A stretch of DNA of 64,000 bases, from contig WPIO01000098.1 of assembly GCA_009760855.2 (NCBI GenBank), forward strand, positions 622,501 through 686,500, given 5' to 3'. Positions 5,998-59,899 of the stretch are shown in pieces. Both the position numbers and the translations under genes were made by a program. This DNA comes from Cristatella mucedo (taxonomy: Eukaryota; Bryozoa; Phylactolaemata; Cristatellidae). A model generated the notes under the pieces. The model searched no databases and was not told the DNA's origin. It saw nothing but the letters and a program-made list of their open reading frames with translations. The first letter of the stretch is position 1. Every line of letters starts with the position of its first letter.

Positions 5998-6348
5998 GCT
6001 GAATGGAAATAAAAGCTATCTGACAAATTGAAAAAGCCCGATTATTTACGAAAGGCTGGTCGCTCAAACTGTATCCAAACTGACTGAGAGCATAATCTCT
6101 GACTAGGCGGCTTAGTCATGCTCAGCATGAGAGACAGATCTTCTCTTTCGTTCTTCTTTGCGTGAATGCAGGTATTTTTTACTTGCAGACGTCTTACCTT
6201 AGAAAGGCAACCTCACGCTAAAAAGCACCAGCATAACATGACAGAAATTCAATCGTGTATTAGAAAAACCGAAGGGCAATTCACGATTCGCTGACCTTTG
6301 TACTTTTGCATCTTGCTGATAATGCTTTTCAGCTTGGCCGCAATATAT

Positions 6349-6402
6349 CATTAAGGTAGTGTGACAGTCGAATTGATGTCTGACCACCCAAACGTTCTCC
6401 TA
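6349..6402. ncRNA. Array hairpin A2-1
   Basis: GGTAGTGTGACA (6355-6366) pairs with TGTCTGACCACC (6377-6388), 9 of 12 positions. The outer 5' half expected to read GAACGTT is lost, while AACGTTCTCC remains on the 3' side. Partly decayed. Confidence 0.4.
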
Positions 6403-6967
6403 AGCAAAGTGATTCGTTGCTAAAAGCTAAAAAAAATAGTCTGAAGGGGGACCTACAGAACTTACAAATCGGCTTCAGGTTTACAATGGCAAGTGCAAGG
6501 TAGAGACTTTTTGAGTATCAAGGTTCCAAAATGGTTAATTTCAGGCATTGCCAATATATGCATATATGTATATACAAATTTAAAAAAATGACAATAAACT
6601 GCACAATATAAGAAAGTTCGATCTCCCTAGTGGAGCTGAATGTCTTTGTACTCTATGCCTAACTTACAAAGTCCTAATGGCAGTACCGTGGAAACAAGGT
6701 CAAACTGAAGTCATGACGTCCTCTTACAGTGATTGTGATCGTACGCATTTCACACAATCTCTCCGTGGTTGTATTATTAAATTCTTTTTCGGATTACTTA
6801 AAGATGGCGGGAGTCATGTACTTAGCGAAATAAACTACAAGAAGACTAGAGACACCTTCAGTCATTGCAAATATAGCGATCATATAGCAATATCTGCTTA
6901 TATCCTCGTACAAAGAAGAATCCTTAATTTGAAAAATATAAAGTTCTGCAAAAACACACGTTTAGTT

Positions 6968-7045
6968 ACACTGTGAGATCATGGGGATTCCCTAGCAGAA
7001 GATATAATGCTCCGAAAAGCTATGCGCTCTCAAGAAGTAAGGCAC
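6968..7045. ncRNA. Array hairpin B4-1
   Basis: The 5' arm (TGTGAGATCATGGGGATT) faces the 3' arm (AAAGCTATGCGCTCTCAAG) around CCTAGCAGAAGATATAATGC. Pairing is reduced compared with the copies at 30053 and 44627, but position 0.63 kb after A2-1 is as expected. Confidence 0.4.
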
Positions 7046-7212
7046 AACGCTGCAATCTCAACTTAAAAATAATACAAATTTGCATTAGAGGTTTAAATTG
7101 CTAGGTTATACAAACAATAGCTCACAAACTGACTAAGTAATCCAAGAAAATAATTAAATTATCACCAATTTAAACCACACTGTACGAGTTTATGTAAACT
7201 AATATCACAGAT

Positions 7213-8077
7213 CCGTGGAATATGGAGCTCGTCTCCTGAAAACCCTATACCGTCATCTCTGTGGTCTTCACGGGCAGATCAACTTAGCCATGCCACAACC
7301 AAGATTTGCAATGCTTCTTTGGTAAAAGGAGTCGTACCAAAGCTCTTCAGTTCGGCAGTCGTCAGGCCCATACTTATTAAGCCTGAATTAGATCCCAAGG
7401 TCCTTGCAAACTCTCGCCCAGTTCCCCTCTTCCTCTCTAACCACAGATTCTTGAAAAAATTGTTACTAAGCAGCTGGTGGCACATATTGAAAAGAATGAA
7501 ATGTCGGAAACATTTCAATCAGGATCCAAGAGGCAGCACTCCACTGAAACTGCTCTCCTTTATGGTATTAATGACGTTCTACATGGAAATGGTGACGGGA
7601 GTGTGACTGCCCTAGCTCTGCTAGATCTGTAAGTTGCCTGCGACACCATTGCTCACGATGTTCTAATTGAATGATTGAGAACAACAATCGGTCTGGCAGA
7701 CGAGGCACTGACGTGGTTCAAGTCTTACTTGCATGATCATGTTCAGTCCGTGACGTCCGAGGGACAGGTTTCGCACATGAGACGGGTAACCTGTGGAGAC
7801 CCTCAGAGGTCAGTCCTCGGTCCCTTGCGGTTCTCCGTTTATACTCAACTCATAGGAAAAGGAAATAGGACCCATGAAAAAGGATATAAATTTTATGCGG
7901 ACAATCCTAGCTGTTCGTCATTCAAAACGTCTAAAATCTGCTGCAGCAACTGAGAAACTGAATGCTTGCCTCGCCGACATTTGATCCTGGATGTCAGAAA
8001 ACTTCTTGAAACTAAATGAGGATAAAACCGAACTGCTGCTCATAGTGCACCCTAAGCGTGTGGCGAGCTTCTTACTC
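7213..8077 (+). mobile_element. LINE-b fragment: reverse-transcriptase pseudogene
   Basis: In-frame pieces spell RT landmarks: AVVRPILIKPELDPK and SRPVPLFL near the fingers, then (with a stop) LLDL...CDTIAHDVL for motif A, TWFKSYLHDHVQSV, GDPQRSVLGPL for the PQGSxLGP block, and GYKFYADNPSC where FYADD has become FYADN. Thus the second catalytic Asp is lost, and stops and frameshifts interrupt the frame. It is a different family from LINE-a. It interrupts an array monomer and is followed directly by an S3 SINE. Confidence 0.8.
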
Positions 8078-8357
8078 AACGACAACTAATCTCCTACTGC
8101 CGACTATGGCTCATCCTCTCCACGTCCTGATCTGCTACTTCCATGCTACTCACTACCTCAGCTGCTCACCTGACTATGCTATGCTTCCCACTTTCTCTTT
8201 GTTGGATGAGACGAAGTCTGTTGGCTACCTAATGCGTACCGAATGCTGCCAAGGCTAATAGCATGCGATACGAAACTCTCCTGCGTGAAACACGCATAGT
8301 CTCTTTGCGCTGTGGCTTTTTTGAGTTTCAGAAGGAGATACATTACATTATATTATA
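8078..8357 (+). mobile_element. S3 SINE-like element, copy 2
   Basis: Runs from CAACGACAACTAATCTCC through TCTCTTTGTTGGATGAGACG to GAAGGAGATACATTACATTA, matching copies 1 and 3 in reverse. It inserts at the 3' edge of the LINE-b fragment. The 3' end carries an ATTAC-like tail. The middle has lost part of the sequence around CTCCTGCGTAACAC. Confidence 0.6.
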
Positions 8358-8819
8358 CAGGTCTGTGATTCAACTAAAAAAGTGATATCTACCTTTAGTG
8401 CTTTTGATAACAGTAACAGCGAGGCGGTAATGTATTTCTTAACTCATTTCAAGCACCTTTTGTTCAAACACTGGCACTAAATTTACGATGTTTTTTGAAT
8501 AATTAGTTTTCACGATTTTCTGAATATTCTTCATATAATTCACTAAGAAATCTACGAGCGTAACCAGCGTTAGTCACTCACGCAGTGGGTCACCTCACCT
8601 CAATGCAAGAGAACACTAGCACTGGTGGTAAACAGCAGCCAAAAACACTAAAAGACGACTATCGACGAGCAGGCCAGACTTTACTTCACTAGGCTGTTAT
8701 CATCTTGGTATACGATAGGTCGGGCATCATGATCTGAATATTTTAGTACGATCTCCCGCCGATGACAGATAGACCAAGGCCTTTAGCTTGGTTATTAGAT
8801 AGTTTAAACATAATGTTTA

Positions 8820-9300
8820 GAGCACGCTAAGATAATTTAATCGCTATTCAGGTGCTTTATGTACGTCATGGTGCTCCCACCAGCGGTCTGCAGCACCGGA
8901 TGTAAGGCGCTTACTCATCACGAATGAAGCCGTCGGTTCGAATCCTGCAGAGGGCGATGTTACATTGCCATCGGTGTGCTGGTCACCTTCGACCATTTTA
9001 AGACTATTGAGATTTACATTTCCGTGCTAGCTGATTTAACAGCCTCTTTTTATATAGCGACAGAAGAGCCTTTACGGCTATCACCACTGCTTGCAGTGGC
9101 GATAAAGGATAGCCCACCACAGGATTTGAACCCACGACCTCGGGGCGGAGGTCATGAAAAGCAGCAGCCTTACTCAGTGAGCCATTACGGCTCAGCAATG
9201 ATTCCTCCTTTGCTGCAAACTTAAAGTGCCTAGAGGGTGATAAAGTTCTCTGATAACGCCATACGAACGTGTTTTTATGAATAACTGGTGGTGACTGTTG
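8820..9300 (+). mobile_element. S1-related tRNA-SINE composite, copy 1
   Basis: A minus-type tail relic (ATTTAATCGCTATTCAGGTGC) is followed by a plus-strand tRNA-like head with an exact B box GGTTCGAATCC at 8935-8945 and its own tail AAGTGCCTAGAGGG...AAGTTCTCTGATAACGCC near 9228-9262. Paralogous composites at 36060-36470 and 52640-53030 share this arrangement, so it was duplicated with the array. An S2 SINE is nested inside at 9029-9195. Confidence 0.6.
9029..9195 (-). mobile_element. S2 tRNA-derived SINE nested in the composite
   Basis: On the minus strand: TGAGCCGTAATGGCTCACTG (A-box region), exact B box GGTTCAAATCC (plus 9122-9132), body with GCAAGCAGTGGTGATAGCC, and end TCGCTATATAAAAAGAGG then GTTAAATCAGCTAGC. 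The host composite resumes after it (compare the uninterrupted copy at 36060), so this insertion is younger than the composite. Confidence 0.8.
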
Positions 9301-9541
9301 TTGTGGCTTTCTTGCCGCTATAAAAATGAGACATGTAAATCAGCCAATACTTTCTTTTCAGGTGTTCTCAAGCTTATCAAGCAGATGTCTGTGGTCGCGC
9401 ATTTTGAAGAAGCTTTTAAATATCCTGGTAACCTTACACAAGCAAATATTTTACCTTAGTCGCTTAAGGCTGCTGAAATCGTTTCAGTTTCTATTTCGTA
9501 TTTAGAAATTTATTGGTAATTCAGCTTACCTTCATAACTCT

Positions 9542-10716
9542 CTTGGCTGACTCTCACAATTGGCTCTGCCAGAAGATCTCCTGTCGAATCAGCTTAAAAT
9601 CTAGGTGCCATGTTCCAAAGTGGCATCTCGTTAGGCGACCACACCAGCTCCCCAGTCAAGACTGCCTACTTTCAGCTACATAGCATGGCTAAAATTCGGG
9701 CTTGTTTAGATAAGGATACCACGTCTGAGTTGATCCATGCATTTTTGACATCCCGTTTTGACTTCTGTAACTCACTGAGTGCTGGAATACCGGCATGTGC
9801 AATCAGGCGATAACAGCTGGTCCAAAACTCCGCAGCTAGGCTTGTCTGTCGTGAGATTCGCAGCTGCCACATCACACCACTTCTCGCCGACCTGCAGTGG
9901 CTACCAGTCAAGCAACGGATCGACTTAAAAAGTTTCTTCACTCACTTTTAGGTCACTTCTTTCTTTGGCTCCAGCCTATCTCTCAGATCTACTCCCCCAC
10001 CAGGCCAAGCATCGTACCACCTGCTTTTCGGAATCCAACAGTTTACCAATAATTCGTACAAACCTAAAATCCTTTGGAGACCGTGAATTTAATTTGTATG
10101 CCGCAAAGCCTAAAACTCACTCCCGACTTGCATCAGAACATACCCAGATTTCACCACATTTAAAAAGAACTTAAAAACACCTAATTAGACAGCATTTAGT
10201 GGGTTCTTGTGATTTGTACTTTACGTGCTTGTGAGTGCTGACACTGTGCATGGTGCCACTAACCACATTTGCATGCTAACATGTGCATGTCGATATGTTG
10301 CTGTGTCTCCGGTGGAGGCTGTTCTAATGGAGTCTCACGGAGACCCGAAGACACGAGCGGGCAAACGTGAGTGGTGAGCGAGACTCTTGTCTTTATTCCC
10401 CCAGCGGGGAAATATACGAGCTGGCGGCTGACTCACCACATGTGAGGTAGTGTCTCTACGGTGGATCACATGATTACGTCAAAGGCTGCCCCGAGTCAAT
10501 GGTTCAATCTCTCACTGCAGGGCGTACCTCAGCGGCCGAGAGCCAACAAGGGCACACAACAGTGTCACCTCTAACTATGTTATTCATGTTGTTTATCAAG
10601 CATGATATTACTCACCATTCAGTCGCGTTTCCATTTGCAGCAAATTTAAAGCATCTAGAAAGAGATTGAGTTCTCTGGCGGTGCTTTATCAAGAGCATTA
10701 TTATTATTATTATTAA
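9542..10716 (+). mobile_element. LINE-a copy, 5'-truncated, carrying an LTR-like insert
   Basis: Starts in the C-terminal region (TTGGCTGACTCTCACAATTG) and runs through the sense equivalents of the LINE-a C-terminus (frame pieces KIRACLDKDT, FLTSRFDFCNSL and the MAPAYLSDLLPHQAKHRTT block), the 3' UTR (GTGCTGACACTGTGCATG) and the terminal hairpin-related AAAGCATCTAGAAAGAG...CTTTATC into (ATT)n. Frameshifts and a stop after CAIRR disrupt coding. A 270-bp insert splits the 3' UTR at 10292-10561. Confidence 0.85.
10292..10561. mobile_element. Candidate solo LTR inside a LINE 3' UTR
   Basis: The interrupted LINE reads GCATGTC then ACCTCTAAC; other copies (61915-61930) read GCATGTCACCCCTAACC without a break, so the insert is defined by comparison. 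Flanks ATGTC (10287-10291) and GTGTC (10562-10566) fit a 5-bp target duplication with one change. Near the ends TGTTG (10296) and CAACA (to 10561) form the inverted TG...CA of LTRs, though four extra bases precede TGTTG. No protein. A non-autonomous DNA transposon is the alternative. Confidence 0.4.
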
Positions 10717-12852
10717 CTCTAACTTTATTGTTTGTCTAAAAGCTCGGCTAAGAATAAGCGGCGAGGAAAGATCAACTGCATATACATCATAACTTATGCA
10801 GCACCACACGAGCACTTACTTGGTAGCAGTCATCTTCCAGATTGATCGCCTGGGCAATCAGTTTTAGCCCGCCAGGGAAGGCTTTTGACCACCTTGGCGA
10901 TGGTAAGATAGAAGCGCACAAGAAATAGCAGCAGTCCATCGACGAACGAGAAGCAGTGAATCAACGGATGCGCTCAGAGAATCCTGCAAGGCGAACAGAG
11001 GAGATTATTGGTCTGTTAATTTTTATGCGAAAGGTCACGAGTTGCAAGCTGAAGGCGTGTGCATGAGATACTACTGCTTACTCTGGCAAGTACTAGTGAC
11101 GAACTTGCATATCCACCCGTAACTTTCCAAACGATTGGTTCTAAGCCAGGAGAAGAGGTAATCTAATAGTTGATGAGTACATGAAAAAGGGAACATTTAT
11201 GTCGAAAGAGGTGCGAACACTGTGCGAAGGCTGAGAGATACTGGTAACGACAGGCAGGAGATTGTCAACGAACGAATGATTATGCACAGGTGCACAGGGC
11301 AAGCCAAACAGGTACTTTAATAACTAAATTGCTGCTACTGATTTTGCTTGCTCATGTTCCAGGTACTCTATGTAAAGAAAATTTTCTGATTTATTTCTGC
11401 ACATGAAAACCGTACTCGTTAAACCCACACAGAATATTCGATTCAGTGAGTCCTGGACTGTGAGAATCACTGCTTCAAATTATTCTCCTGCTTCTGACTT
11501 TGTCATATCCTTTGCAGCCTTCCTGGACTGCTACCTTGCTGCTAATAACTCCTTGACTGCATCGCTCTTTCAAAAAGCTTGTCGCTCAATCTCGTTTCCA
11601 GAGATGACGTTTGTTACCAAATACATACGTCTGCTTAGTTTTTCAGGGTGCCGTAAAAAAGCTCTGCCTCATAACCACTTGGTCTATGGGGCTGCCTGGA
11701 TTTCACACGGAGATAAGTTTAGCTAAATTAAAAACTGGAAAGTCCATTTGAAATGCTAAAACGAGGTCTTCAATGTAGTGCAACTTTCGGAAAACAGAAC
11801 AATCAAGGTTATGTCAGTGAGGCGACAATGCACACTCGCTCTGATAAGGCGCAGAAGCGGCCTTGGATCGAGTGACATTTTAATTGGCACGTATTTGTTA
11901 ATGCCAGAATAAGCGGAATGAGTTTTAACTTAGCCGGTTAATCTCACATTCCATAAGTGCAAGCATGAAATCAAACTTGATGGACGTTCAATACAGTTTT
12001 TGAACTACTAAGGCCAATTTAAGGTCCGTAACGTTCGTATTCATTCGGCTTGCGATGCAGATGCAGCTTATCTGTAACCCATAAAAACGTAGGAAGTACT
12101 TTAAAAGTTCAAACAACGTCAGAACGTTCCCATGCCACCTTGAAGCAAAGGAGATCATGTGCAGAAACTCAAGCAATTCTGGGAATCTTCACATGTTTTA
12201 AAAAACGAAATAATGATTAGGATTTGTATTGGATAAAGCAAGTGCATAGTCAGGACTATTTGATTGGAAGCTCTTGAAAGCTCATTTTTATACCATTTAG
12301 ATTGTTTTACAGAATATAATCACATGATGCAATCCTATTTCAAGGAAACAGCTTTTTTCTGAATTAAAGTGAGCGTTGTTTTCCTAATGTCTACCTATTG
12401 ATATCTTACACGCATTGCCAGCGATAGATGGCCTCTTCACTATCAGGAAGATTGTTAAAGCTAGATGTAACTGATCTACGTCATACTTACTTAAGGGTCA
12501 GCCAAACGTTTGGGAAGTTTAAACAACGACACGGTTGCCTCATTTATGACTTAGTCAATGAAAAGTGGCGCGATCGTCATGAATGCTCAGAAAATCAGTC
12601 AGAAGTTCAGCAACAAAGCTATTATCACGACAGATGTAGCTGTAGTTATTACCAAATTGATTCCATGGACAATTACTGGTGGAAGCGCTATTTTCAACCT
12701 ATCCTCCAAAAAATATTGTTTCAGAAATGTATGCAATCACACTTACGCCGTGAGGGCGTCGTGGTTATAATAACAGTAGATAATTTGTTATGGAAACCGC
12801 TGGGCTTTCACAGAGCAAGGTGTAAACCTGTAGCTCGGCTAAAAAATGCGTT
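10717..12852. repeat. Array segment with decayed A and intact B1 hairpins
   Basis: AGCAGTCCATCGACGAACG to CAGCCTTCCTGGACTGCTAC (about 10930-11530) is paralogous to 36540-37130 and 53100-53700. From 11730 it follows the 15090 block (TCTTCAATGTAGTGCAACTTTCGG). A degenerate A hairpin may lie at about 12080-12132 (AACGTAGG...CAGAACGTTCC). GATGGCCTCTTCACTATC and GCTCCAAAAAG-type words lead into hairpin B1 at 12741. Confidence 0.65.
12741..12825. ncRNA. Array hairpin B1-1
   Basis: Left arm CTTACGCCGTGAGGGCGTCG faces right arm CGCTGGGCTTTCACAGAGC; the inner stem TAACAG/TTGTTA closes a loop around TAGATAAT. Several mismatches compared with 34008. Flank CCTGTAGCTC follows as in other B1 copies. Confidence 0.5.
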
Positions 12853-12962
12853 ATACACACACACACACACACACACACACATTTATATATATATATATAC
12901 ATATATATATATTTATATATATATATATATGTATACATATATATATATATATTTATATACAT
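12853..12962. repeat. (AC)n then (TA)n microsatellite
   Basis: An uninterrupted AC run of about 28 bases is followed by about 75 bases of mostly TA with ATTTA and GTATAC interruptions. It abuts the 3' end of a minus-strand S1 SINE, so the TA-rich part probably grew from the SINE tail. Confidence 0.9.
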
Positions 12963-13105
12963 AATTCGTTTATTTAGCGCCCCGAGAGAACTTAATCTGT
13001 ATTCAAACGCTTCACTTATGCCTCGGGGCTCGAGCCCACGACCTCAGTCAGACATTGGTCGGAGCGAGCACCTTAACCGCCAGACCAAACCAGCTCGTTA
13101 AATGC
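12963..13105 (-). mobile_element. S1 tRNA-derived SINE with LINE-like tail
   Basis: On the minus strand: CTGGTTTGGTCTGGCGGTTA (A-box region), GTGGGCTCGAGCCC (B-box region), then AAGCGTTTGAATACAG, AGATTAAGTTCTCTCGGGG and GCGCTAAATAAACG. The last part matches the LINE-a 3' hairpin tail (AGATTAAGTTCTCTGAGGGC). Its site is not shared with the other S1 copies in the array, so this is a separate, probably later insertion. Confidence 0.8.
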
Positions 13106-13674
13106 TCCATAATTTAATGCCAAAACGGTACTCTTTCGTTAAAAAGTGAGTTATTTCTAAGGAAATTAAAATTTACCTTCAATGCTCCTCTCTCGGTCGC
13201 CCAATTTGTAAGCATAGCCATACCTGTTGACGAATAAAAGTTATGCCTGCAAGAACGATTCACAGGGAGAGACTTTTATATGCGGCGCCAGCACACGCTG
13301 ACACACAGGCCTAAAGACCGTCAGCTGCGTTAAAATTCACTATTATTTATTGACAGCCAATCGCTCAAGTTTCTGAGAAATTGACTTTGAAAACATGCAG
13401 TATAAGTATAAGTATAAGACGCCGTATAAGTATAAGACTACGTGGATAAGTAGGCTCCAAATGCAAAATATTTTATTTCGATAGTTTGTGCGTGAATGAA
13501 ATCATTTCAATCATGTTGACCTCTTACCTTATGAAGGCAACCTCACACTCCAAAGGCACAAAGCATAAAGTGACAGCTATTGAATCGCATATTGGAAAAA
13601 TCACGTGGTAAATTACAATTCGGTAACATTTGTACTTATCCATGTTGCTGTTATTGACGTTCAGCATTGCCCTA

Positions 13675-13712
13675 TTATAACGTTTGGGTAATTTCAGACT
13701 ATCCGAACGTGT
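13675..13712. ncRNA. Array hairpin A2-2 (shortened)
   Basis: ACGTTTGGGTA (13680-13690) pairs with TATCCGAACGT (13700-13710) over 11 positions, two of them G-T wobbles in plus-strand RNA, with a 9-base loop. The inner TCTGACA part of the 5' arm has been deleted relative to 16782. Confidence 0.45.
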
Positions 13713-14344
13713 TGTTCATGCAAAGTAGCTAGTGGCCTTAAAACTAAAAAACGATTCATTCTCCGAACGGGCCGAGCTAGCATACTAAATTGCAATACAG
13801 TGGCTCGTGGCAAGTGTAAGATGGAAACTATTTGAGTATTTAGGTTCCAAATCACTTACCATCGGGCACTAGAGATAGATGTAAAGAAAAAAAACTGATA
13901 ATAAACTATCCTTACATATGGAAGTCTAATATTATAAGTTAGGCTGAATACTTTAATACTGCACGTCAACTCGAATAGTCGTTAAGGCTCTGCCGTTGGT
14001 ACAAGACTATAATAAATGATGGCGTGACGAAGAAATTGGTTAAGCAAGCTTACAGTAATTGTGATCGTACTTAAAAACTCTCCAGTGCTTTAGTATTGCA
14101 AACTCGCAAAACCTCTCCAGTGCTTTAGTATTGCATGTTTTATCCTTTTAAGACATCAGCAAGAGGTAGATACTCGGCGAACGAACTACGAACAAACTAG
14201 AGCCGCCTTCAGTCGTTGGTGAATGGGGTGCTAGAGAGTGATATTTGATAGAAGCGCCCTAGTCAATTTAAATTCGCGCGAAGCGGAATTCTTAATTTGA
14301 AAAATATAAAGCTCACTCCGAATACAGGCACGTGTCACTTGATT

Positions 14345-14412
14345 CCATGAGAATGCTGGGTTTTCCTAGCAGCCGATATAATGCAATCAAATCTCAGCCA
14401 TCTCAATAAGCT
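14345..14412. ncRNA. Array hairpin B4-2
   Basis: ATGAGAATGCTGGG faces CTCAGCCATCTCAA; the usual CCTAGCAG/ATGCTAG inner stem is broken because the 3' side reads TGCAATC. Weaker than B4-3 and B4-5. Confidence 0.4.
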
Positions 14413-16127
14413 AGGTACACAGCTGCACTCAATTAAAAGAACTAGCACGTATAGAATCAAATACAAATACAAATCAAACAAAACACTGGGTATGTGAACA
14501 ATACCACCGAAACTGAATGAACTATTCCGGAAAGTATGAGCATTATCCCTCACTGAAACCCCACTTTATGAGTTCCCGTGCACTAAAATCCTAGAAATGT
14601 GGCACACAAGTTTGCTAGTCCACTAACAAAAGAATATTTACCCTGTACGCTTTCAATAGCAGTAACAGCAAGGAAGGTGGTGCCGTTTCAAATCATCCCA
14701 CGAATCTTGCATTCGAAGCCTAGCAATCGATTACAAGCGACGTTTCGCATAATGAGGTTTTCACGAGTGGCTGAATTCACAACACGTATATTCACTGAAG
14801 AACTTGCCAACACCTGTCCCAACAATAGGTAGTCATTCACATACTCTTTTACTTCAAATGCTAAGAAGATGACACTAATACTTGTAAAAAAGATTAGTCA
14901 TTAACGAGAAATCAGTGTTGACATGCAGACTTGGCTTGTTTCTCTTGTGGTCTTATAGTAGCGGTACGTTTTGAGGCGGTAATCACGATCAGAATATTTT
15001 CTTCTGAACAGTCGCAGATGACAGACAGCCCACGGATTTTGGCATTATCATTCAATTCAGGAAAAATTTGCGCACGGAGGAACATTTACTTACATTAAAA
15101 GTTGGACAGTCCATTGGAAACACAGATAGGAGGTCTTTAATGTAGTGTACCTCTCGGAAAACAGAACAATCAAGGTTATGGTTATGAGGCGACAATGCGC
15201 ACCCGCTTGGGCGAGAAGCATGAGCGGCCTTGGAACGAGAGACATTTTGTTTGGCTCGTATTTGCTAATGCTAGAATAAACAGAATCATTCTTACCCTAG
15301 CCGGTTAATCTCGCATTCAAAGATTGCAAAAATGCAGTCGAACGCGAGAGACATTGGATCGCATTTCTGAACTGCTATGTCCAAATTATTGTCCTTGACA
15401 TTAGCAATCATTCGGTACACAGACGATGCATCGTATCTTTACCCCGTAAGATCGTCGGAAGTGTTCTACCCGTACAAATCCGATCAGAACGTCCAAATGT
15501 CCTCTCAAAACAAAGAGGCTTATGGCTTAGATCTCAAAAAACTTAGAGTTCTCTGAAGATTTAAAACAAGAAATAATGATTAGGATCTGTATCGGATAAA
15601 GCAAGTGCAATGTTAGGACTATTTGATTCTAAACTCCAGCTAGCTCACTTTGATAAAATTGAGATAGATTTGCAGCATATAAATGACATTAGGCAAGCCG
15701 ACTGGTAAGTAAACGAATTTCCCGAGTTGGTATGAACGTTTATTCTTTAATAGCTACATGTGAAATTTGTACAGGCGTTGCCCGTGATTTACGGCAACAA
15801 TATTGTCTTGAAGATTGCTAGAGCTGACTGTAATTGATCGAGGCTGTACTTACTTAAGTGTCAATCAATTTTTATAGAAGTTCTAAAATAAAACATTCGC
15901 TTAATGTATGAGTTATTCGATGAAAAGTGGCCTGATTATTTTAAATGCTCCAAAAAAAGTTAAGCGTTCACTAACGACACTCGAAAGCTATTGGCACGAC
16001 AAATTTAGCTGTAGTCATTTCCAAGATAACTCCGCAAACATCTGGTGGTAGAGCTATAGTCGATCTATCCTCCAACAAATAAATCCGTGATCAAACAAAT
16101 TAAGTTTTAAAAATGAAGACACCTATT

Positions 16128-16210
16128 CTTACGCCATGAGAGCGTCTTCGTTTTCATAACAGTTGATAATGTGTCAGAAAACCGCCACTATCTCAGGGAG
16201 TAGGCGTAAA
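16128..16210. ncRNA. Array hairpin B1-2
   Basis: CTTACGCCATGAGAGCGTC pairs with the right arm CCACTATCTCAGGGAGTAGG and terminal GGCGTAAA; CGTTTTC pairs with GAAAACCG. The inner AACA/TGTC stem is weakened. Confidence 0.5.
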
Positions 16211-18473: not shown

Positions 18474-18524
18474 GGCATTTGCACTTATTCAGCCAATTGA
18501 AGATGCAACTTATCCTAACCCCAA

Positions 18525-26963: not shown

Positions 26964-26983
26964 TGAATGCTGAGATTATGATA

Positions 26984-49155: not shown

Positions 49156-49238
49156 CCTTACACCGAAAGAGCTTGGTGGTTTTCCTAACAGCAGATATAT
49201 TGTTAGAATATCCCCACGCTCTCACGATGCAAGGTTCA
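49156..49238. ncRNA. Array hairpin B2-2
   Basis: GAGCTTGGTGG faces CCCCACGCTC and CTAACAG pairs with TTGTTAG; the right arm has drifted (ATATCCCC for AAACCGCC), lowering pairing compared with 24713. Confidence 0.45.
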
Positions 49239-50007: not shown

Positions 50008-50086
50008 TCCCTACACCGTGAGAGCACCAAGGTTTCCTAGCAGCATATTCAATGCTAGAAACGTCAGGCGCTCACACGAAGCAAGG
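50008..50086. ncRNA. Array hairpin B3-3
   Basis: CCGTGAGAGCACC faces GGCGCTCACACG, and GGTTTCCTAGCAG faces ATGCTAGAAAC. The loop is CATATTCA. Confidence 0.5.
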
Positions 50087-50394
50087 AATGAGGCTTTGGA
50101 CTAGTCTAAAAAAGGAACAAGCGTATGAATTCAAACAAGAAACAATTCGGCGTACAAACAACAGCTTGGCGAATGGCTGAATAATTTTGGAATGAATCAA
50201 AGTTATCGCTCATTGGCAACGCACTGTTTGCGTTCACTAGAACTAATCTCTAAGCAAAGTCACTTAATGTGTTTGGATTCAAGTTAAAAGCGTTACTGTA
50301 GATGCTTTCAAGGAAGTAACAGTGAGTAAATAAGTGCATTTTTAGATTATCCCACGCTTCTTCCTTGCGAACACTGAGATTATAAGAATAATAT

Positions 50395-50520
50395 ATTTTG
50401 TATTGTGCCGTGTGAGAGCTTTATATTTGTGACTGGACTTTACTTGAGTTTTACAGAATGCATGATCAAATGATTAGTGGTAGAATGGTTAATGATAACA
50501 AGCATTATATTTCACTTGCT
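50395..50520 (-). mobile_element. Fossil LINE stub, array-borne copy 3
   Basis: ATTGTGCCGTGTGAGAGC and GAATGGTTAATGATAACAAGC match the 3' ends of the fossil LINE copies at 26984, 42776 and 56788; the rest is deleted. Confidence 0.6.
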
Positions 50521-51235
50521 GCAGATTTAGCTTATCTTCTGCCCATAAGGACTTTGTAAGTCGTCTACCAGTACAAAGAATGCCAAATCATTCCGCAAGC
50601 CCTCTTCAAACAAAAAAGCTCATGGTTTGAAAATAAAAGATTTTTAGTGCCGTTTTAAGGTCTAAAATACAAAATATTAACTAGGCTGCGTATCAGATAA
50701 CGCAAGTAGAAAGTTAGGATTTTTAAAAGCAACCTCTAAAATGCTCACAGTGATAAAACTAAGATAATTTTACAACAAGTAAATGACGCGAAGCAAACCT
50801 TATCTAAGGAAACAATAAATTCTGAAATCAGAGGAAATCTTTTCTTAATGACTCGGCGTCAAATTCGATTTGGCATTTTCCAAGATAGATGGCGGCTTTC
50901 TTATCATGAATGTAACAAGACATTGCTAAAGCAGCATGTAACTGACTGATTTCCTTCTTACTTAAATGCTAACCAAACGCTTGAGAAGTTTTAACATTAA
51001 AACAGTCTCCTGATTCATGATTTATTCGATGAAAAGTAGGCTGATCGTTACAAATGCTCCAAAAAGCAGTCCGACGTTTAGTATCACAGCTATCAGCACT
51101 ACGGGTGTAGCTTTAGTCATCATTACCAAAGTCATTTGCTAAAGATATTTGCTAGATGCGCTCTTGTCGATCGATCCTCCTTTGAAAAAATCACTAATTC
51201 GACAAACATTAAGCTCTGCAAATGGATACGCTTAT

Positions 51236-51320
51236 CCTTGCGCCGTGAGGGCGTCGTGGTATTCATAACAGTGTATAATATGTTAGAAAACCGCCACGCT
51301 CTCACGGAGGAAGGCGTAAA
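51236..51320. ncRNA. Array hairpin B1-7
   Basis: CCGTGAGGGCGTCGTGGT faces ACCGCCACGCTCTCACGG with two wobbles in plus-strand RNA and one mismatch; TAACA/TGTTA extends it. Second only to 34008. Confidence 0.6.
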
Positions 51321-51892
51321 CCTATAGCTCAGCTGTAAAATGCGTTTTAAACGTTTTATATTTTAATGCCCGACCGTCAGGCTTTACCTCTTTCCTGTAA
51401 GAGCGCTTTTCGCCAAGGAAATCAAAATTTACCTTCCATGCTCCTCTTTATCGTCCAAAGTGCAAACTTAGGTATATTGCTTGACGAGTTTAGGTTGTGC
51501 CCTGAAACGACGAACCTCAGGCAGCAGCTGTTAGGTGAATAAGTATACGCTGGCACGCAGGCTTACACACTATCTGCTGCATTAAAAAGCACTATCATTT
51601 ATTAAAGCCAATCGCTCAAGTTTAGCCAAAATTGACTGCAAAAAGGCAGTATCTGCGACTGCACGTATTAGTAGACTCTGCATGACAGATATTTTGTTTC
51701 ATTCTTTCTTGCGTGAATGAAACTATTTTGAACATGCGGATGTCTAACCTTCGGAAGGCAACCTCACTCTCCGTGGTCACTAGCATAACATGACAGATAT
51801 TCAATCGCCTAATCAAAAAGTCATGGTGGATTTACAATTAGGCAACCATTGTACTTATTCAGCTAGCTGATACTGCTGTTCAGGTTTGCCAT

Positions 51893-51952
51893 ATTTGAAT
51901 GCTTTGGTTGGTTTGATAGTGGAAGTTATGTCAGACCTTTCGAACGTTTTCT
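51893..51952. ncRNA. Array hairpin A2-6 (decayed)
   Basis: GAATGCTTTGGTTGG and TTGATAG face TGTCAGACCTTTCGAACG; only short stretches pair. Position 0.64 kb after B1-7 is as in intact monomers. Confidence 0.3.
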
Positions 51953-52639
51953 TAAAGCACACTAGTTCGCGGCGTCAGAACTCAAAAATGATTTAGAGTC
52001 CGAACGGGCTAAACTAGCATCCTAAATTTGGATCATGTGGCTTGTGGCACGTACACGGTGGAAACTATTTGAGCGTCTAGTTTCGATTAAGCATTAACTT
52101 CAGGAACTGGAGATAAATATATAAATAGCCAAAAAATTATAATAAAATATCCTAACATAGGGAAGTCTGATATTCTTAGTGAAGCTGATTAAGTCTGTGC
52201 TGTACGGTCCACTGATAAAGTCGTAAATCCATTGCTGTTGTTACAAAATTACTATAAAATTATGGCCTGCAAAATAGATTGATTAAGCACGCTACAGTAA
52301 TTGTGATCATAAGAACTTCACTTAACCTCTTCGGGTTCTAGAATTGCATCTTTTATCATGTTAAATTAAGATATCAGCAAGAGGTAGGCACTTGGCGAAA
52401 GATCTACAAGCTAACTGGAGCTGATTAAGTCATTGTAAAAATAGGTTCTTGGATGGAGACGTGAAAGAAGCGCTTATGTTAATTTTTTTCTCGCGTAGAA
52501 AAATCTTCAATATCAAAAATATAATTTTCTGTAAATAGAAACACCATGGACAGCCCATATCTTTTAGCATTGCTGATTACTTCACAATACATTATATAAT
52601 GGGTAATTCAATCAGAATATGTAGTGGCACGAGTTTTCC

Positions 52640-53030
52640 GACGAAACTATCTTGTATATACCCGAAGAGAACTTTAATCTCTATTTAGGTGCTTCATGTA
52701 TGTCACAGGGCTCGAAGGCGCCATCTGTATTAATGGATTGGAGGTAATAGTTCTTCACGAACGAGGTTGTTGGTTCGAGTTGCAACGGGCAATCTTTTAT
52801 TTAAATTGGCATGCTGGTTAACTCTAGCCATTGTACGTTTAATTATATTGAGCTTTCAATCGCTCTATCTTTTTGCAAATATGAAGTGCCTAGAAAAAAG
52901 TGCCATTCTCTTATCTCTAATAAAAAAAGTATTTTTAATGACACGTTTAAGCGACGGAGACAGCCATTAAGGCTTTTCTACCGTTATAAAACGAGAAATG
53001 TAAATTAGCTAAGATTTTATCTTTGACGGT
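52640..53030 (+). mobile_element. S1-related tRNA-SINE composite, copy 3
   Basis: Minus-type tail relic (CCGAAGAGAACTTTAATCTC), plus head with B-box-like GGTTCGAGTTG (52772-52782) and tail GAAGTGCCTAGAAAAAAG. Paralogous to 8820 and 36060. Confidence 0.6.
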
Positions 53031-54271
53031 CCTCTCAAGCTAATCAAGCAAACGTCTGCTGCAGAACGTTTTACGAAGCGTGCATGTAAAGGGAGGACAC
53101 AGAACCGTAAGCAGTCCATCGACGCATGCGACTCAGCGTAACCTGCAAGATAAACAGGTGAGTCTGTTCGTTATTATGCGAAAAATTTCTATTCACATAC
53201 TGAAGTCATTTGCATGAGATTCTGCCGCTTACTCGGGCAAGTAGTAGCCCTGAAATTGCATAGGCGCCCGTAACTTACCAAAGGATTGGTGCTAAACCAG
53301 AAGAAGAGGTAATTGGATAGTTGGTGAGTGCATGAAAAAGAGAGCGCCGATGTGGAAAGAGGAGCGACCTCTCTGCTAAGGCTGAGAGGTACTGGGGAAG
53401 GAAGCAATGAAGAGATTGTCAACGAACGAGGGATTGGGCGCAAGTGCACTTAGCGAGATAAGCAGGTACTTGAATATTTAAATTGCTGCTACTTGTTTAG
53501 CTTGCTAATGATTCAGGAAGTCTATTCACATACTATTTTCGGATGCATTTCTAGACATGAAAACTGTCCGCATTAATTTCCAGATGGAATCTTTTATTTA
53601 GTATGGCCCGAACAGTGAAACAAACTTCATCCATTATTCTATGGCTTCCTACTTTGGCATATTCTTTGCAGCCTTCCTGAACTGCTACTTTGCTGCTACT
53701 CACTCCCTGGACTGCATTGCCTTTTCAGATAAGCTTGCCAATCTTTCTTTCAGCGTGAAGCGATATCTTTTACCTTATGCATGCATACTGATAGCTGCTT
53801 ACGCTTTCTTTGCACTTTGAAAAGCTGTGTTAAGTAACACCGTTTTATTCTGTGCGGCTACATGGATTTGCACAAGGAGGTACGTTTACTTACACTGACA
53901 GTTGATTAGCCACTCGGACACGCAGATAGATGATCTTTGCTGCGGTAAGTCTTTCGATAAACTGAAAAAACAGAGGCCCCGGCAGTATAGCAACAATATT
54001 AGATGTCACCTACCAGACGCGTAAGCTGCTTTTTTAGTGCGAGGAGGGAAACAGCGTTTGGCTCGAATTTAGCAATGCGAGAATAAGCATCACGAGTTTT
54101 GCCTTAGCCGCGCGACCAGGCGTTCAGAAAGTGCCAGAATAAATATCAACCTTGACTGAAATGAAATTCAATCTCATTTAATTCTCATTCAATTCATTTT
54201 CTTATTACTAAGTCCTATTCATCGTCTGAGACAATGCAGCCTGTCAAGTATGCAGCTAATCTTTACCCCAA

Positions 54272-54333
54272 AAGAACGTTAGGAGAATAGTGACTGTAGA
54301 AATAAGGTCACATTACCGTCCGAACGTTCTCTT
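54272..54333. ncRNA. Array hairpin A1-8
   Basis: AAGAACGTTAGGA faces GTCCGAACGTTCTCTT; GTGAC faces GGTCAC. The middle is less paired than in 37678. Confidence 0.5.
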
Positions 54334-54819
54334 AAAGTAAAAAAGCTCATGGCTGGAAACTCAGAATTTTGAGAGTGTCATCTCAAGGTTTAAAACACAA
54401 AATATTGATTGGGATTTTTATTGGGTAAAGCAGGTGGAAAGTCAGGTCTATTCGAGTGGAAGCTTTAAAAAAGTCCCTTTCCGAAAATCGAGATAAATTT
54501 AAAGTAAGAGAACATTTTGCGAAACAAATCTGCTGTACTGAAATGATATGTTTTAGTTTTGGGTGAGACTTTATCTTAACTTTATCTTAATTTATTTTAT
54601 TATTTTATATTTATTTAATTTACGACTTTATCTTAACGACTGGCTTTTAAAAATAGATAAGCTTGCTCGCGATAGATGGCCGAATGACAACTAACGATCG
54701 CAAGCGAATCCAAACGCTAGAACGAATAGATTGAGGTCATACTTATGGATTCCTTAACTAAATTTAAGGATTTTTTTGACAGTATAACGGTCGCATGATT
54801 CATGATTTATTTGAAGACA

Positions 54820-54960
54820 TCATAATGATACTATATAATATAATTTCTTTTCCTAGCGCCCTCGGAGAACTTAATCTCCATTCAGGCAGTTCACACATGC
54901 CGCGGTCCTCAAACCCATGACCTCGGCCATACCTCGGTCTGGGCAAGCACCTTGTTAAAA
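54820..54960 (-). mobile_element. S1 SINE, array-borne copy 4
   Basis: Tail CTATATAATATAATTTC, then AGCGCCCTCGGAGAACTTAA and head TGCTTGCCCAGACCGAGGTA, with GTCATGGGTTTGAGGACC at the B-box position on the minus strand. Confidence 0.75.
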
Positions 54961-55156
54961 AGTGGCCTAATAAATATGACAAATTCGAAAAGCAGTTGGA
55001 AATTTATTAGCGAAGCAATGAGTACAACGGCTTTAGCTTTAGTCATTAATAAAGTAATTTGGTAAAGAAATATCTGTAGAACAATGATAGTCAATGTATA
55101 CTCTTAAAGAAGAATCCCTAATTTTATCAATAATAATTTTTCTAAGGAGCCGCTTA

Positions 55157-55238
55157 TCCTTACGCCGAAAGAGCTTGGTGGTTTTCCTAACAGCAGATAT
55201 ATTGTTAGAAAATCTCCGGGCTCTCACGAATTAAGGCA
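55157..55238. ncRNA. Array hairpin B2-3
   Basis: CCGAAAGAGCTTGGTGG faces CTCCGGGCTCTCACG and CTAACAG pairs with TTGTTAG. Partly decayed right arm. Confidence 0.45.
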
Positions 55239-56024
55239 CATGGCTTCAGCCCACCAAAAACGCGTTTTAAATGTTCCGTGTTTCAATATCCGGACTGAGT
55301 GCCATTACTCAAACATTTAGGGGGTTTCATAGCTAAGGCAATTATAATTTACCTTATGAGTTGCTCTCTTACGAGTTCAACCTGCAAGCGGAGCCATATT
55401 GGTTGACGAATCTCGGTTAACCCTAAAACGTCGTACTGCAGCCAGCGTCTTGTAAGTGCAGTACCAATACGCACATGGGTACATACCGGGCAAGATGTGA
55501 AAATAAAATGGAACAGAGCCCTACGTTAAGGTAAAAAATTCATATGATGTACGTGAAGAAGTCTTTTCGACATCAACGGAATATCCGAGGCTACACGTTA
55601 TTCATAAAGCGTATATTAGCTGTCACACACAGCATCAAAAGCAGCAATCTATAGTCGATTGTGCTAATTTTCAAGCAAAATTCACGAGGCTCGACTTGCA
55701 AAAGTCAACTAATGTCTAATGCAAGCTTGTACCGCAAGTGCTCAAATAAAACATGTTTTTGGCATAAAAAAATCATGGGTAATTCGAGGTTGATAAAATT
55801 GATTTATATATCTTTCAGAGACCCTCATCTAGCCAGACAGTGACACGGAAAGTAAAGCAATCTACAAGAAAGTGTTTAGTACATCAGGCAGAGTAGAAGG
55901 AGAGGCGCTCGGTAAAGCGAGATAGCATTAGCGAAGGCTGAGAAGAGCTGGTGTCGATTTAGCCTCTAGCAAGCAAGAATCATTAAAGAGGAAAAGATCT
56001 AGTTCTAAAAGGGTGAGGCTTATC

Positions 56025-56102
56025 CCTACACCGTGAGAGCACCCGGGTTTCCTAGCAGCATATTCAATGCTAGAAATGCTAGGCGCTCACACGAAGCAAG
56101 GC
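56025..56102. ncRNA. Array hairpin B3-4
   Basis: CCGTGAGAGCACCCGGG faces ATGCTAGGCGCTCACACG; TTTCCTAGCAG pairs with ATGCTAGAAA except one base. Confidence 0.5.
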
Positions 56103-56412
56103 ACAAGGCTTCAAACTAGTCTGAAAAAATGAACAAGCGTTTGAATTCAAATCAGAAGTAATTCGGCGCTCGGCTACTGGCTGAATAATTTCGGAATGAA
56201 TATAAGTTATCGCTCATTGGAAACGCACTGTATGAGTTGACTAGAACTAATATCTAAGGATAGTAACTTATATTTTTTGGATTCGAGTAAGAAACGTTAC
56301 CGTAGATGCTTTCAAGGTAGTAACAGCGAGGAAATTTGTGCATTTTTAGATTATCCCACGCTTCTTCCTTGCGAATGCTGAGATTATCTAGTTATAAAAC
56401 GGCTGAGCTTAC

Positions 56413-56492
56413 CCGTACACCGTGAGAGTGCAAGGATTTCCCAGCAGCCGATTCAATGCTAGAAAAAATGTGCGCTCATACCAAGCAAGTCA
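56413..56492. ncRNA. Array hairpin B3-5
   Basis: CCGTGAGAGTGCAAGG faces ATGTGCGCTCATAC, and CCCAGCAGC faces AATGCTAG. More diverged sister of 56025. Confidence 0.4.
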
Positions 56493-56787
56493 CAAAGATT
56501 CAAAATCGTCTGGAAAAAACAGACTTTAATTTAAATTAAAAATAATTTGGTGCACACTTAATAGCTCGGTTCCTGGCCAAGTTATTTTGGAATGAATCTA
56601 AGTTATCACTCATTTGAAACGCATTGTATGAGTTCACGAGAACTAATCTCTAAGGAATGTCACATATAGTTTTTTTATTTGAGTAAAAAACGTTTCTATT
56701 GATGCTTTCACAGAAGTAACAGCGAGTCAGGCAGTGCATTTTTTGTAGATCATTCCACGGTTCAGCATTGTGAATGCTGAGATTTTA

Positions 56788-57830
56788 ATCAAACTATATT
56801 TACATAGTGCCGTAAGAGAGCTCAATTTTTGTGATGGGAGTTTACATTAGCTTCAAAGAATGCATGACCAAACGATTATTATTATCGTGCTTAATGACAA
56901 CAAGCACAGCATGTTTAGATATGGCATGCACAGGGTAAGCATTCAAATATTATTTGTGGCAACATGTACAGAGTCAGCACGCATTGCAAGTAAAGGACCA
57001 ATCACGAACCCGCTAAATTATGTGACACAAAAAATGCATTCTAGCTGCGTTTTGGATATCGTCAAGCAAGAGGATGTCGTGATGCCAGTCGGAAGTGAAT
57101 TCCAGGCTTTGAGGGCATGCGACCTAATTTTGTGGAGACAGGATTAACAAACGCTAGGACTACTTCAGATTATCTCTGTCTCAGTAAACCCTAACTTATA
57201 TATCAGTGTGTATCTAACAGTAGGTCGACTTTACTGGGGAGCTGATGGGTTCGTCAAATTAAAGGTCACTTTGTAATTGGCCATTAACTTTTCGTGCAGA
57301 TTTAACAAGAGAAATGCTGACAGAGCTAATTTTGTGAGTTAATTTTTCCATAATGTTAATCACACTTGGTTGACCCAAAGTGTTTAAGTAGGTTTTATCA
57401 TCACTCCGTTGAATAAAGTGTGCTGCCTTTGATTTGCGGATGTCATCGCTACATATAGCAAGGAAGTTGATAAAATTTGACATCCTTTTAGAACGGGAAT
57501 GGATTAAAGCAAACGTACAGCTGAGTGTCATCTGCATAGAAATTGAAGCCTTGGTTGTGCTTGACGATTTTCAACGGCAAGTGGAAGAGACTAAACCATG
57601 AAATAAACAGGCCCAAACACAGACTCGCAAAGTATTCCATACATCAGTGGCTCCTCGTTTGATCTTGGCTCACATCAATACTCACGAGTGTCCCACGTAC
57701 TAAAAGCATCGTAGCGATTTTCGCCCGCGAAGCTTATGCGAGCGAAGAGGCGCTTGTGAAGCACGTGGTGATCAATAATATTCGTGTAATTCAATGTGTT
57801 GCACACTGAACTCGTCTCTAATTGCTTGAA
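56788..57830 (-). mobile_element. Fossil LINE fragment, array-borne copy 4
   Basis: GAATTCCAGGCTTTGAGGGC, CAGAGCTAATTTTGTGAG and GTACAGCTGAGTGTCATCTG follow LINE-a order. Short frame remnants around 57259-57537 recall RSWMAANF and KTNLLVMGKPS in altered form. Coding capacity lost. Confidence 0.75.
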
Positions 57831-57835
57831 GTTTT

Positions 57836-58559
57836 CCTCATTTGTCTCTATGGAAGAATCTGCAATTGCGTAGCTACACCGTCATGTGTCCGTACTTAGG
57901 GCATGTACTTCAATGCTACGAATAGAATGATAGTACTAAGCAAATACAGGCAAAGCGTAAAATTTGTTAGCTTGAGAACGAGACTACATGTGAATACACC
58001 ATTATGATTGAATGGTACATTAAAAGGCTGTAGTTATTTAAAGATTATTCTGGCGAGATTAGCGGTAGAAGACCACTTACCAGTAGCTCTATGCCCGGTT
58101 CTTTAATCCAGGGCATTAGCCTGCAGGGTTAACTTAGTCAGGATGTAGGATGATACAGACTTGTCTTTAAAATCACGGCCAAAATTTGGCAATCTCCTAT
58201 TTCAAGAAATATTTGGTCATACTTGCCACAAGAAGAATGTTCGACTCAAGTTGGTTGCTGGTACTAAAATCATCACTAATAATAATGCACTTTCTAATAT
58301 ACTAAAATCATTGCACTTTCAATCACTCATTAAAAAGTCAGTGCAAAATCGGCTGACCTCTACCTTAAAAGAGTGTGCTAAAGCTTGATGTGAACAAGTG
58401 GCAACAAGCAACCGGCTGAATTTAGATAGTCACTCCTGCAGCAAAACACGAGTCTTGGTTGCAAAAATCTTTCGTTTTGTAAAATGAACTGTTGCTGTGT
58501 ATTTGATAAAAATACATTGTAGTCACCAATTTATTGTGCAACCTACAAAATTTTTAAGA
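57836..58559. other. Unassigned interval between array units
   Basis: The first 100 bases match 28020-28135 (paralogous flank beyond the fossil LINE). From about 57950 I recognise nothing. A lysine-rich frame of 75 codons at 58161-58388 (+) has no family resemblance. Confidence 0.4.
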
Positions 58560-58724
58560 TGGTTTAGTAGCCTCTTTTGCATAGCGAAAAAAATTCTTCA
58601 CGGCTATTACCCCCACCTGCAGCAGCAATAATGGGTCGCTCATCGCAGGATTCGAACCTACTACCTCGGGACCGAGGTCATGGAAAAACTCGACCGCCTT
58701 ACCTAGTGTGTCATCACGGCTCAC
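58560..58724 (-). mobile_element. S2 tRNA-derived SINE with exact B box
   Basis: On the minus strand: GTGAGCCGTGATGACACACT, GTAAGGCGG, exact B box GGTTCGAATCC (plus 58648-58658), body and end TCGCTATGCAAAAGAGGC. An extra TCGCTCATCG-like insertion lies just after the B box. Confidence 0.8.
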
Positions 58725-58861
58725 CTAGCAGCCAAAGGGTGCCAGAATAAAAGTAGTCGTGTCAGATATTCGATCGCGTTTCGTTGCGAAAGATCCGTAA
58801 TTTATTATTCTGCAATCATTGCATTCACGCGTGCAGACAATGCAGCTCATCTTTACCCTAA

Positions 58862-58920
58862 TAGGAACGTTAGGGTGTTCTGACACTTAAAATAATGTCA
58901 GAAAATCCGAGCGTCCTTTT
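58862..58920. ncRNA. Array hairpin A1-9
   Basis: GAACGTTAGGGTG...TTCTGACA faces TGTCAGAAAATCCGAGCGTCC. The top CTGACA/TGTCAG resembles A2, making this an intermediate between A1 and A2. Confidence 0.45.
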
Positions 58921-59515
58921 AAAGCAAAGAAACCCACTGCAAAAAAAACGCAATAAACCACGAGAGCGCTTGCAGTGCCGTCAGAGATACTTACAATTGT
59001 TTAGAATAAGTACTGAGGTGATGGAAGTGCAAAAGGACGAATTCACGAGGCTCTAAAAAAGCTACTTTTAGCAACTGAAGATAGGTTAGTGATAATTAAA
59101 AACCTTTATTAGGCAATCTTATTTTAAGGACGCTGATTTTCTTAGTTGGGACGAAGATTTTTGGTATTGTCTGACTACTTTTGAAGTCTTATCCGAATTG
59201 CCATATATAAATGATCTTATGACTAGTATGCCAATTTCCAAGGGAAGAATAGATTAAGTTAGATTAACTCGACCAATATTTAACTTGACGAAACTTCAAA
59301 CGGTAAAGCAATAACTGTTACCCTAATAACTTTAAATTCCTCAAAAAACATTTAAGCATTCAGCGAAAGAAACTATAAGCACAACAAAGGTAGCTTTAAT
59401 CTTGACTAATATAATTTATTTACTTTACAACTAGCGCAAGCCACATTTTCAGTGTTCAATCAAGCACTAAAGCAGCCCTAATTCAAAAAATATCTTGCAT
59501 TTAATTTGGAGATGC

Positions 59516-59606
59516 CTCTCTTTACAACATGACAACGTAGGGTGTTTCTAACAGTAGATGTTATACTAGAAATAACATACGTAACTGCGAAGAAAAATAG
59601 CTTGGG
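59516..59606. ncRNA. Array hairpin B4-6 (decayed)
   Basis: TTTACAACATGACAACGTAG and AACAGTAGATGTTATACTAG hold the B4 position and loop; the right arm is barely recognisable (ACATACGTAACTGCGAAG). Confidence 0.25.
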
Positions 59607-59899
59607 CTTAGTAAGAATAAACACAATACTGCATTTTAAGTAACTTACGTTTAGTATAAAAATTAGAGCTTGCATAATAAATGAATTTCTTAGAATACGT
59701 GTAAAATAATTCACTGAAATGCGTATCTTATATTGATATTTAAACGGATTCACCTGAAAATTCACACACTGAGTTTTGCGATTCACGTGAAAGGCACCAC
59801 CCATAACATCACGCTACCGTGCAGCTGCAGTAACAGCGAGAAAGACTTGAGCCGTTTCTTGAATAATATCAAGTGTCTCTCTGTTTCATGCTAATCCTC

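Follow-up and report, generated by a model that had tools for sequence, protein, structure and literature searches.

A single-orientation array of 40 hairpin units in the bryozoan Cristatella mucedo, predicted to be a lineage-specific microRNA cluster

Results and discussion

A 64,000-nucleotide (nt) stretch of the genome of the bryozoan Cristatella mucedo (contig WPIO01000098.1, positions 622,501 to 686,500; hereafter the window, part of a 572-Mb genome of 688 contigs) contains 40 homologous hairpin units, all in one orientation, between positions 6335 and 59600. We predict, with a probability of about 0.72, that this array is a lineage-specific microRNA gene cluster that grew by tandem duplication. 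An earlier note, made from the letters of the window alone, had proposed such a cluster; hairpin folding, conservation centered on the hairpins, matched changes between arms, and genomic matches to Drosha, Dicer, Piwi-domain proteins, and let-7 support it, and the 12 copies that have no stem above control count against it.

Extent and architecture of the array

Self-comparison of the window gave 186 matches on the same strand and 43 on the opposite strand, outlining a diverged tandem array from ~6 to 59 kb; the longest opposite-strand matches connect dispersed repeats. A profile seeded with 16 hairpins recovered 31 units at E < 1e-3, and a second profile, built from 10 family-A hairpins with 40-nt flanks, reached 40 same-orientation units over five rounds and then stopped growing. 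Minus-strand profile matches with E < 0.1 were the same palindromes read in reverse, which bears out the single orientation noted earlier, and no further units were found at E values up to 1 in the 20 kb on either side of the window. The earlier note had counted 36 inverted repeats plus an orphan arm. The place was right and the orphan arm is unit 46273, of which the profile covers the right-hand part alone, but 36 overstates the number of intact hairpins because 12 of the 40 units fail the stem threshold described below, leaving 28 with a stem above control.

The two families noted earlier were recovered in a midpoint-rooted tree, with 18 units in family A and 22 in family B (support 1.0 and 0.73 on either side of the root). 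The tree further resolved subclasses A1, A2, A3, and B1-B4 and one outlier per family at the right end of the array, A4 and B5 (all subclass names were coined in this analysis). Members of the two families alternate at 31 of 39 neighboring pairs (permutation p = 0.0002), forming A-B dyads of ~1.3 kb; dyads and larger blocks are repeated in tandem, and longer blocks recur (A3-B1-A2 three times, A1-B2-B3 three times). Start-to-start spacing is often 0.63-0.92 kb, close to the 0.62-0.9 kb reported before, but intervals of 0.39, 0.48, 0.53, and 1.07 kb and more also occur. The arrangement suggests that A-B dyads were copied in tandem and later recopied as larger blocks, with transposon insertions added. 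Paralogous hairpins thus lie head to tail in one orientation, as expected of a tandem lineage-specific microRNA cluster. The units are listed below; strand (-) is the favored inferred RNA strand, and z scores are given for the plus and then the minus strand.

6331..59604 (-) whole array, 40 hairpin units in one orientation, transposon-interrupted (self-comparison, profile search, tree)
6335..6407 (-) A2, no stem above control (profile search, stem score)
6966..7042 (-) B4, no stem above control (profile search, stem score)
12072..12148 (-) A3, no stem above control (profile search, stem score)
12743..12820 (-) B1, hairpin, z -5.2 / -4.4 (shuffled folding)
13667..13723 (-) A2, shortened around loop, no stem above control (profile search, stem score)
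14341..14415 (-) B4, no stem above control (shuffled folding, stem score)
15439..15513 (-) A3, weak (shuffled folding, stem score)
16129..16203 (-) B1, weak (shuffled folding, stem score)
16776..16850 (-) A2, hairpin, z -9.0 / -9.9 (shuffled folding)
18516..18593 (-) A1, hairpin, z -4.5 / -6.2 (shuffled folding)
19220..19292 (-) B1, no stem above control (shuffled folding, stem score)
21315..21392 (-) A1, hairpin, z -8.3 / -8.0 (shuffled folding)
22969..23045 (-) B1, moderate stem (shuffled folding, stem score)
23846..23934 (-) A1 with insertion, no stem above control (profile search, stem score)
24714..24790 (-) B2, hairpin, z -7.4 / -5.4 (shuffled folding)
25564..25639 (-) B3, hairpin, z -1.8 / -5.0 (shuffled folding)
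30055..30129 (-) B4, hairpin, z -4.5 / -5.6 (shuffled folding)
34009..34085 (-) B1, hairpin, z -7.4 / -9.1 (shuffled folding)
34637..34710 (-) A2, hairpin, z -3.1 / -3.4 (shuffled folding)
35312..35387 (-) B4, weak (shuffled folding, stem score)
37669..37746 (-) A1, hairpin, z -4.2 / -6.5 (shuffled folding)
38380..38456 (-) B1, no stem above control (shuffled folding, stem score)
41326..41403 (-) A1, hairpin, z -4.1 / -9.4 (shuffled folding)
42400..42475 (-) B3, hairpin, z -3.7 / -5.1 (shuffled folding)
43894..43968 (-) A2, hairpin, z -3.2 / -2.7 (shuffled folding)
44629..44704 (-) B4, hairpin, z -5.6 / -4.1 (shuffled folding)
45797..45874 (-) A1, hairpin, z -4.5 / -10.3 (shuffled folding)
46273..46348 (-) B1, one arm only, the orphan arm (profile search, stem score)
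48288..48365 (-) A1, hairpin, z -5.2 / -7.1 (shuffled folding)
49158..49234 (-) B2, hairpin, z -4.0 / -6.6 (shuffled folding)
50011..50086 (-) B3, hairpin, z -4.0 / -7.3 (shuffled folding)
50538..50612 (-) A3, no stem above control (shuffled folding, stem score)
51239..51314 (-) B1, hairpin, z -7.0 / -6.0 (shuffled folding)
51886..51961 (-) A2, no stem above control (shuffled folding, stem score)
54263..54340 (-) A1, hairpin, z -5.0 / -6.4 (shuffled folding)
55160..55236 (-) B2, hairpin, z -5.2 / -2.7 (shuffled folding)
56026..56101 (-) B3, hairpin, z -3.1 / -5.3 (shuffled folding)
56415..56491 (-) B3, no stem above control (shuffled folding, stem score)
58854..58927 (-) A4, outlier at right end, hairpin, z -5.6 / -6.4 (shuffled folding, tree)
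59522..59600 (-) B5, outlier at right end, weak (shuffled folding, tree, stem score)

Most units fold better than control sequence

Each unit was folded with 4 nt of flank and compared with dinucleotide shuffles (200 on the plus strand, 100 on the minus strand). Scores of z < -3 were obtained for 22 of the 40 units on the plus strand and for 23 on at least one strand. Control windows taken 120, 200, or 300 nt to either side reached such scores in 2 of 240 cases (folded on the plus strand, with 100 shuffles per window). The earlier note had named stems that are not stabler than their shuffles as one outcome fatal to its reading; this is not what we found for these 23 units. By a strand-neutral stem score, 28 of 40 units lay above 35.1, the 99th percentile for 160 displaced windows. 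The highest control score, 56.5, came from a CA/TA microsatellite at ~12889-12974 and was exceeded by two units; the next highest, 36.0, was exceeded by 26. The microsatellite itself (12852-12964) is a strong simple-repeat hairpin near the B1 unit at 12743. The 12 units below the stem threshold (6335, 6966, 12072, 13667, 14341, 19220, 23846, 38380, 46273, 50538, 51886, and 56415) look like decayed copies.

Judged by criteria for animal microRNA genes, as in MirGeneDB practice, the array has precursor microRNA (pre-miRNA) geometry, with at least 16 arm pairs and a loop of at least 8 nt (28 of 40 stems above control; consensus loops of 10 columns), and its precursors are more stable than shuffled sequence.

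The two arms change together

Covariation was analyzed in 31 of the 40 units (12 from family A, 19 from family B) against a structure voted from single units. A voted structure leans toward pairing, and we therefore relied only on shuffled and slid controls. First, 8 of 35 pairs in family A changed on both sides and yet remained paired, compared with 3.6 in shuffles (1 of 500 as high) and 1-6 in slid structures; the corresponding values in family B were 11 of 32 pairs, 7.5 in shuffles (15 of 500 as high), and 5-8 in slid structures. Second, cells changed on both sides numbered 13 in A and 33 in B, compared with 4.8 and 16.3 in shuffles (0 of 500 as high in each case), and no shuffle in 500 matched the covariation score or the number of cells paired. 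Third, swapping arms between units lowered the stem score from 42.1 to 35.4 in family A (16 of 18 units) and from 38.2 to 34.4 in family B (21 of 22 units; permutation p = 1/5001 each), with 12 of 16 units in A and 15 of 21 in B scoring higher with their own arms than with the average swapped partner. This arm-swap signal arises mostly from between subclasses. For family B, RNAalifold on plain MAFFT alignments reported five pairs in one run and none in the other, a failure that in our opinion occurs because the subclasses fall out of register.

Conservation is centered on the hairpins

The within-subclass alignments took in 32 of the 40 units and 300 nt of flank to either side, so that all comparisons are among paralogues. 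Mean pairwise identity of the hairpins was 0.70-0.89, and the hairpin was the most conserved window in A1, B1, B2, B3, and B4, where none of 444-448 non-overlapping windows scored as high. Hairpins are thus conserved beyond their flanks in five of six subclasses, the exception being A2, and linkers between units contained only weak peaks of conserved elements. Between subclasses (27 units), identity in family A was 0.84-0.88 in the AACGTT blocks and 0.59-0.67 in the loop region but fell to 0.41 at the 3' stem base and to 0.29 and 0.35 in the two mid-stem blocks. Family B was more even, at 0.56-0.60 in the mid-stem, 0.69-0.71 at the base, and 0.57-0.74 in the loop region. The subclasses had been described as having distinct arms and shared loops, a pattern that family A shows clearly and family B only slightly.

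The genome encodes microRNA machinery

RNase III searches of the genome gave five matches: two loci have a pair each, and another has a single match. A 686-residue frame at one locus (L022) matched Drosha (E = 7.6e-258 to PDB 6v5b and 2.1e-257 to 9asm, named Drosha), and the second RNase III pair matched PDB 8dfv (E = 1.6e-43), identifying Dicer; both enzymes are thus present. Piwi-domain matches, with the Argonaute and Piwi clades taken together, numbered 20 on five contigs, some with internal stops. A let-7 hairpin, whose mature sequence we take to be canonical, lies at locus L004, and two mir-2 hairpins were detected, one above and one below the Rfam cut-off. The let-7 and mir-2-like hairpins therefore mark the genome as bilaterian and, by mir-2, which we take to have clade value for protostomes, as protostome.

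Several observations were made at these loci. The let-7 hairpin (L004, 1508) is followed 171 nt downstream, at 1679, by a mir-125-like TCCCTGAGACC motif, a pair that presumably reflects the ancient let-7/mir-125 linkage. Two mir-2-like 3p sequences lie 265 nt apart (L038, 1537 and 1802). Long microsatellites of GA/CT type, which appear as SLSL/ERER frames, occur at the Drosha and Dicer loci (L022, L024) and in the left neighborhood of the window (L017).

Evidence against a microRNA cluster, and alternatives

Several results weigh against our prediction. First, 12 copies do not have a stem above control, and the A2 hairpin is not conserved above its flanks (83 of 450 windows equal or higher). 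Both fit a once-functional microRNA cluster that is now decaying, a history we consider highly improbable, as the hairpins of A1, B1, B2, B3, and B4 are still the most conserved stretches of their neighborhoods.

Second, within subclasses the loops show about the same conservation as the arms, which is unusual for microRNAs and would be expected if a protein reads the loop, and an Rfam scan of the window gave no match at or above the gathering threshold. These features would suit another class of structured RNA that Drosha does not process, such as a short RNA transcribed on its own or a source of hairpin small interfering RNAs (siRNAs) that needs only Dicer. We regard this as unlikely: the genome has Drosha as well as Dicer, stem and loop sizes fall within the animal pre-miRNA range, and matches touching the units in a permissive Rfam scan were mostly to weak microRNA models (mir-H11, MIR1509), with one to a chance-level bacterial small-RNA model, all far below gathering.

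Third, departures from standard pairing were balanced across 28 of the 40 units, with 35 G.T and 41 A.C columns, and RNA-type wobble tolerance is therefore visible only in A1. Equal frequencies favor inverted repeats that act, or simply persist, as DNA, either as protein-bound palindromes or as arms kept alike by template switching, with no functional RNA; template switching can make arms co-vary in the absence of selection. This explanation seems to us quite improbable, given that conservation exceeds the flanks in five of six subclasses and that A1 alone has 1 G.T and 10 A.C columns, a bias in the direction expected of minus-strand RNA that is weak after allowing for six subclasses (p = 0.012 before and ~0.07 after).

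Finally, further standard pair types were no more frequent than in shuffles (145 of 500 as high in A, 372 of 500 in B), and arm swaps within subclasses gave p values of 0.03 (A1), 0.11 (A2), 0.15 (B1), 0.66 (B2), 0.20 (B3), and 0.26 (B4).

Strand and proposed processing

If the array is a microRNA cluster, as we predict, the evidence leans, not decisively, toward the minus strand as the RNA strand: folding energy, A1 wobble, and CNNC motifs point there, and the overall wobble counts do not. Fold energy was lower by at least 3 kcal on the minus strand in 22 of 40 units and on the plus strand in 7. CNNC usually lies 16-18 nt beyond the Drosha cut. Together with a basal UG and an apical UGU, it is among the processing motifs named in PMC10954719, where CNNC is described as Drosha-recruiting. 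On the minus strand, 26 of 40 units have a CNNC at 6-11 nt outside the unit edge, and on the plus strand 13 of 40 do, compared with backgrounds more than 30 nt out of mean 8 and maximum 16 (minus) and mean 6 and maximum 17 (plus); the offset was picked after inspecting an earlier count, and these are not 40 independent observations because the copies share ancestry.

One or more transcripts, probably from the minus strand, would carry the hairpins. Drosha would cut about one helical turn above the hairpin base, Dicer would remove the loop to leave ~22-nt duplexes, and Argonaute would load one arm as a ~22-nt guide. In this way the array would supply many related guides at high dose, together with a range of variants; by analogy with known clusters, its likely use is such a dose at one stage.

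As a solid prediction, the array is a locus of a kind already known, at an unusual scale; its odd feature is in family A, where the loop and AACGTT blocks are held and the mid-stem diversifies. With arms staying matched, family A could be a fast-diversifying small-RNA repertoire whose guides track changing targets, which may include maternal mRNAs, mobile elements, or viruses; we consider this doubtful.

Searches beyond the array and other content of the window

Two subclasses, A1 and B3, were queried genome-wide (A2, A3, B1, B2, and B4 were not). A 191-base A1 query had at least eight matches, eight of eight in the window, and a 111-base B3 query had at least five, five of five in the window. 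Hairpin patterns had no match among the viral contigs or genome contigs searched; likewise, the reverse-transcriptase frame had no relative among the genome contigs, nor Drosha among the viral contigs. Twelve arm fragments (six per strand) were absent from the texts of the 5.39 million papers searched; supplements, miRBase, and MirGeneDB were not searched, and we do not claim that the sequences are unpublished. With at most one mismatch, a 16-nt word from the A1 arm occurred at 17 places (8 in the array, 9 elsewhere), compared with 19 for the reversed control. For that one word, there is therefore no sign of siRNA-like targets elsewhere, and amplified near-perfect targets were rejected. A word that differs from the A1 arm by one mismatch occurs four times at ~12-kb intervals on another contig (C255, 445558-482279), suggesting an unrelated long tandem repeat.

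Among 10 of the 15 open reading frames of at least 120 residues searched against Pfam, only that of a retrotransposon matched, and a search of the window for transfer RNAs found none. Other features of the window are as follows.

31100-33784 (-) 894-residue open frame, reverse transcriptase RVT_1 (8.2e-31), which we take to be CR1/L2-like
22098-22811, 26196-26975, 29383-29919 (-) 3' copies of the retrotransposon
9545-10290, 61609-62073 (other strand) stretches related to the retrotransposon
29107-29203 inverted repeat, 45 pair columns, 7-nt spacer; its GCGCCCTCAGAGAACTCAATCTC end recurs at 25949-25990, with a variant near the let-7 locus L004
3994-4447 0.45-kb self-complementary element (71% identity to its reverse complement); partial copies at 9027-9194, 28674-28755, and 58602-58724

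Comparison with known microRNA clusters

One close likeness is to the mouse C2MC cluster in intron 10 of Sfmbt2, which has 65 microRNA genes on one strand in ~54 kb and is modeled as having grown in two phases: repeats of a short unit first built up a long one, which was then duplicated head to tail (PMC3212979). Both loci are tandem arrays of hairpins in one orientation. The Sfmbt2 unit is 296 nt, however, whereas most neighbors here lie 0.6-0.9 kb apart; the Sfmbt2 hairpins overlap self-complementary microsatellites beside fragments of the B1 short interspersed element, whereas the hairpins here are not simple repeats; and the Sfmbt2 microRNAs are annotated, whereas our array is known from sequence alone (PMC3212979).

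Among protostomes, an early-embryo cluster in the annelid Capitella teleta contains many microRNAs with apparent tandem duplications on one scaffold, which its authors liken to miR-430 (PMC8915122). It shares with our array the character of a protostome tandem locus, but its microRNAs are expressed and sequenced, and the likeness is one of description, not of compared letters (PMC8915122). The spider Parasteatoda has 34 copies of mir-3791, 13 of them within 50 kb, and two other chelicerates have single copies; this is fewer at one locus than the 40 units here (PMC4987109). The miR-430 and miR-427 arrays of zebrafish and Xenopus contain about a hundred to hundreds of copies with one common seed, AAGUGCU (PMC7564603). 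By contrast, all 40 units lack AAGUGC on both strands.

If expressed, the array would count as a large tandem microRNA cluster beside the protostome cases compared here, such as the 13 spider copies in 50 kb (PMC4987109). Its duplication history is legible, with intact copies beside decayed ones, so that a single locus could serve to measure microRNA birth, dosage, and decay. The array would also provide a protostome parallel to the miR-430 and Sfmbt2 arrays.

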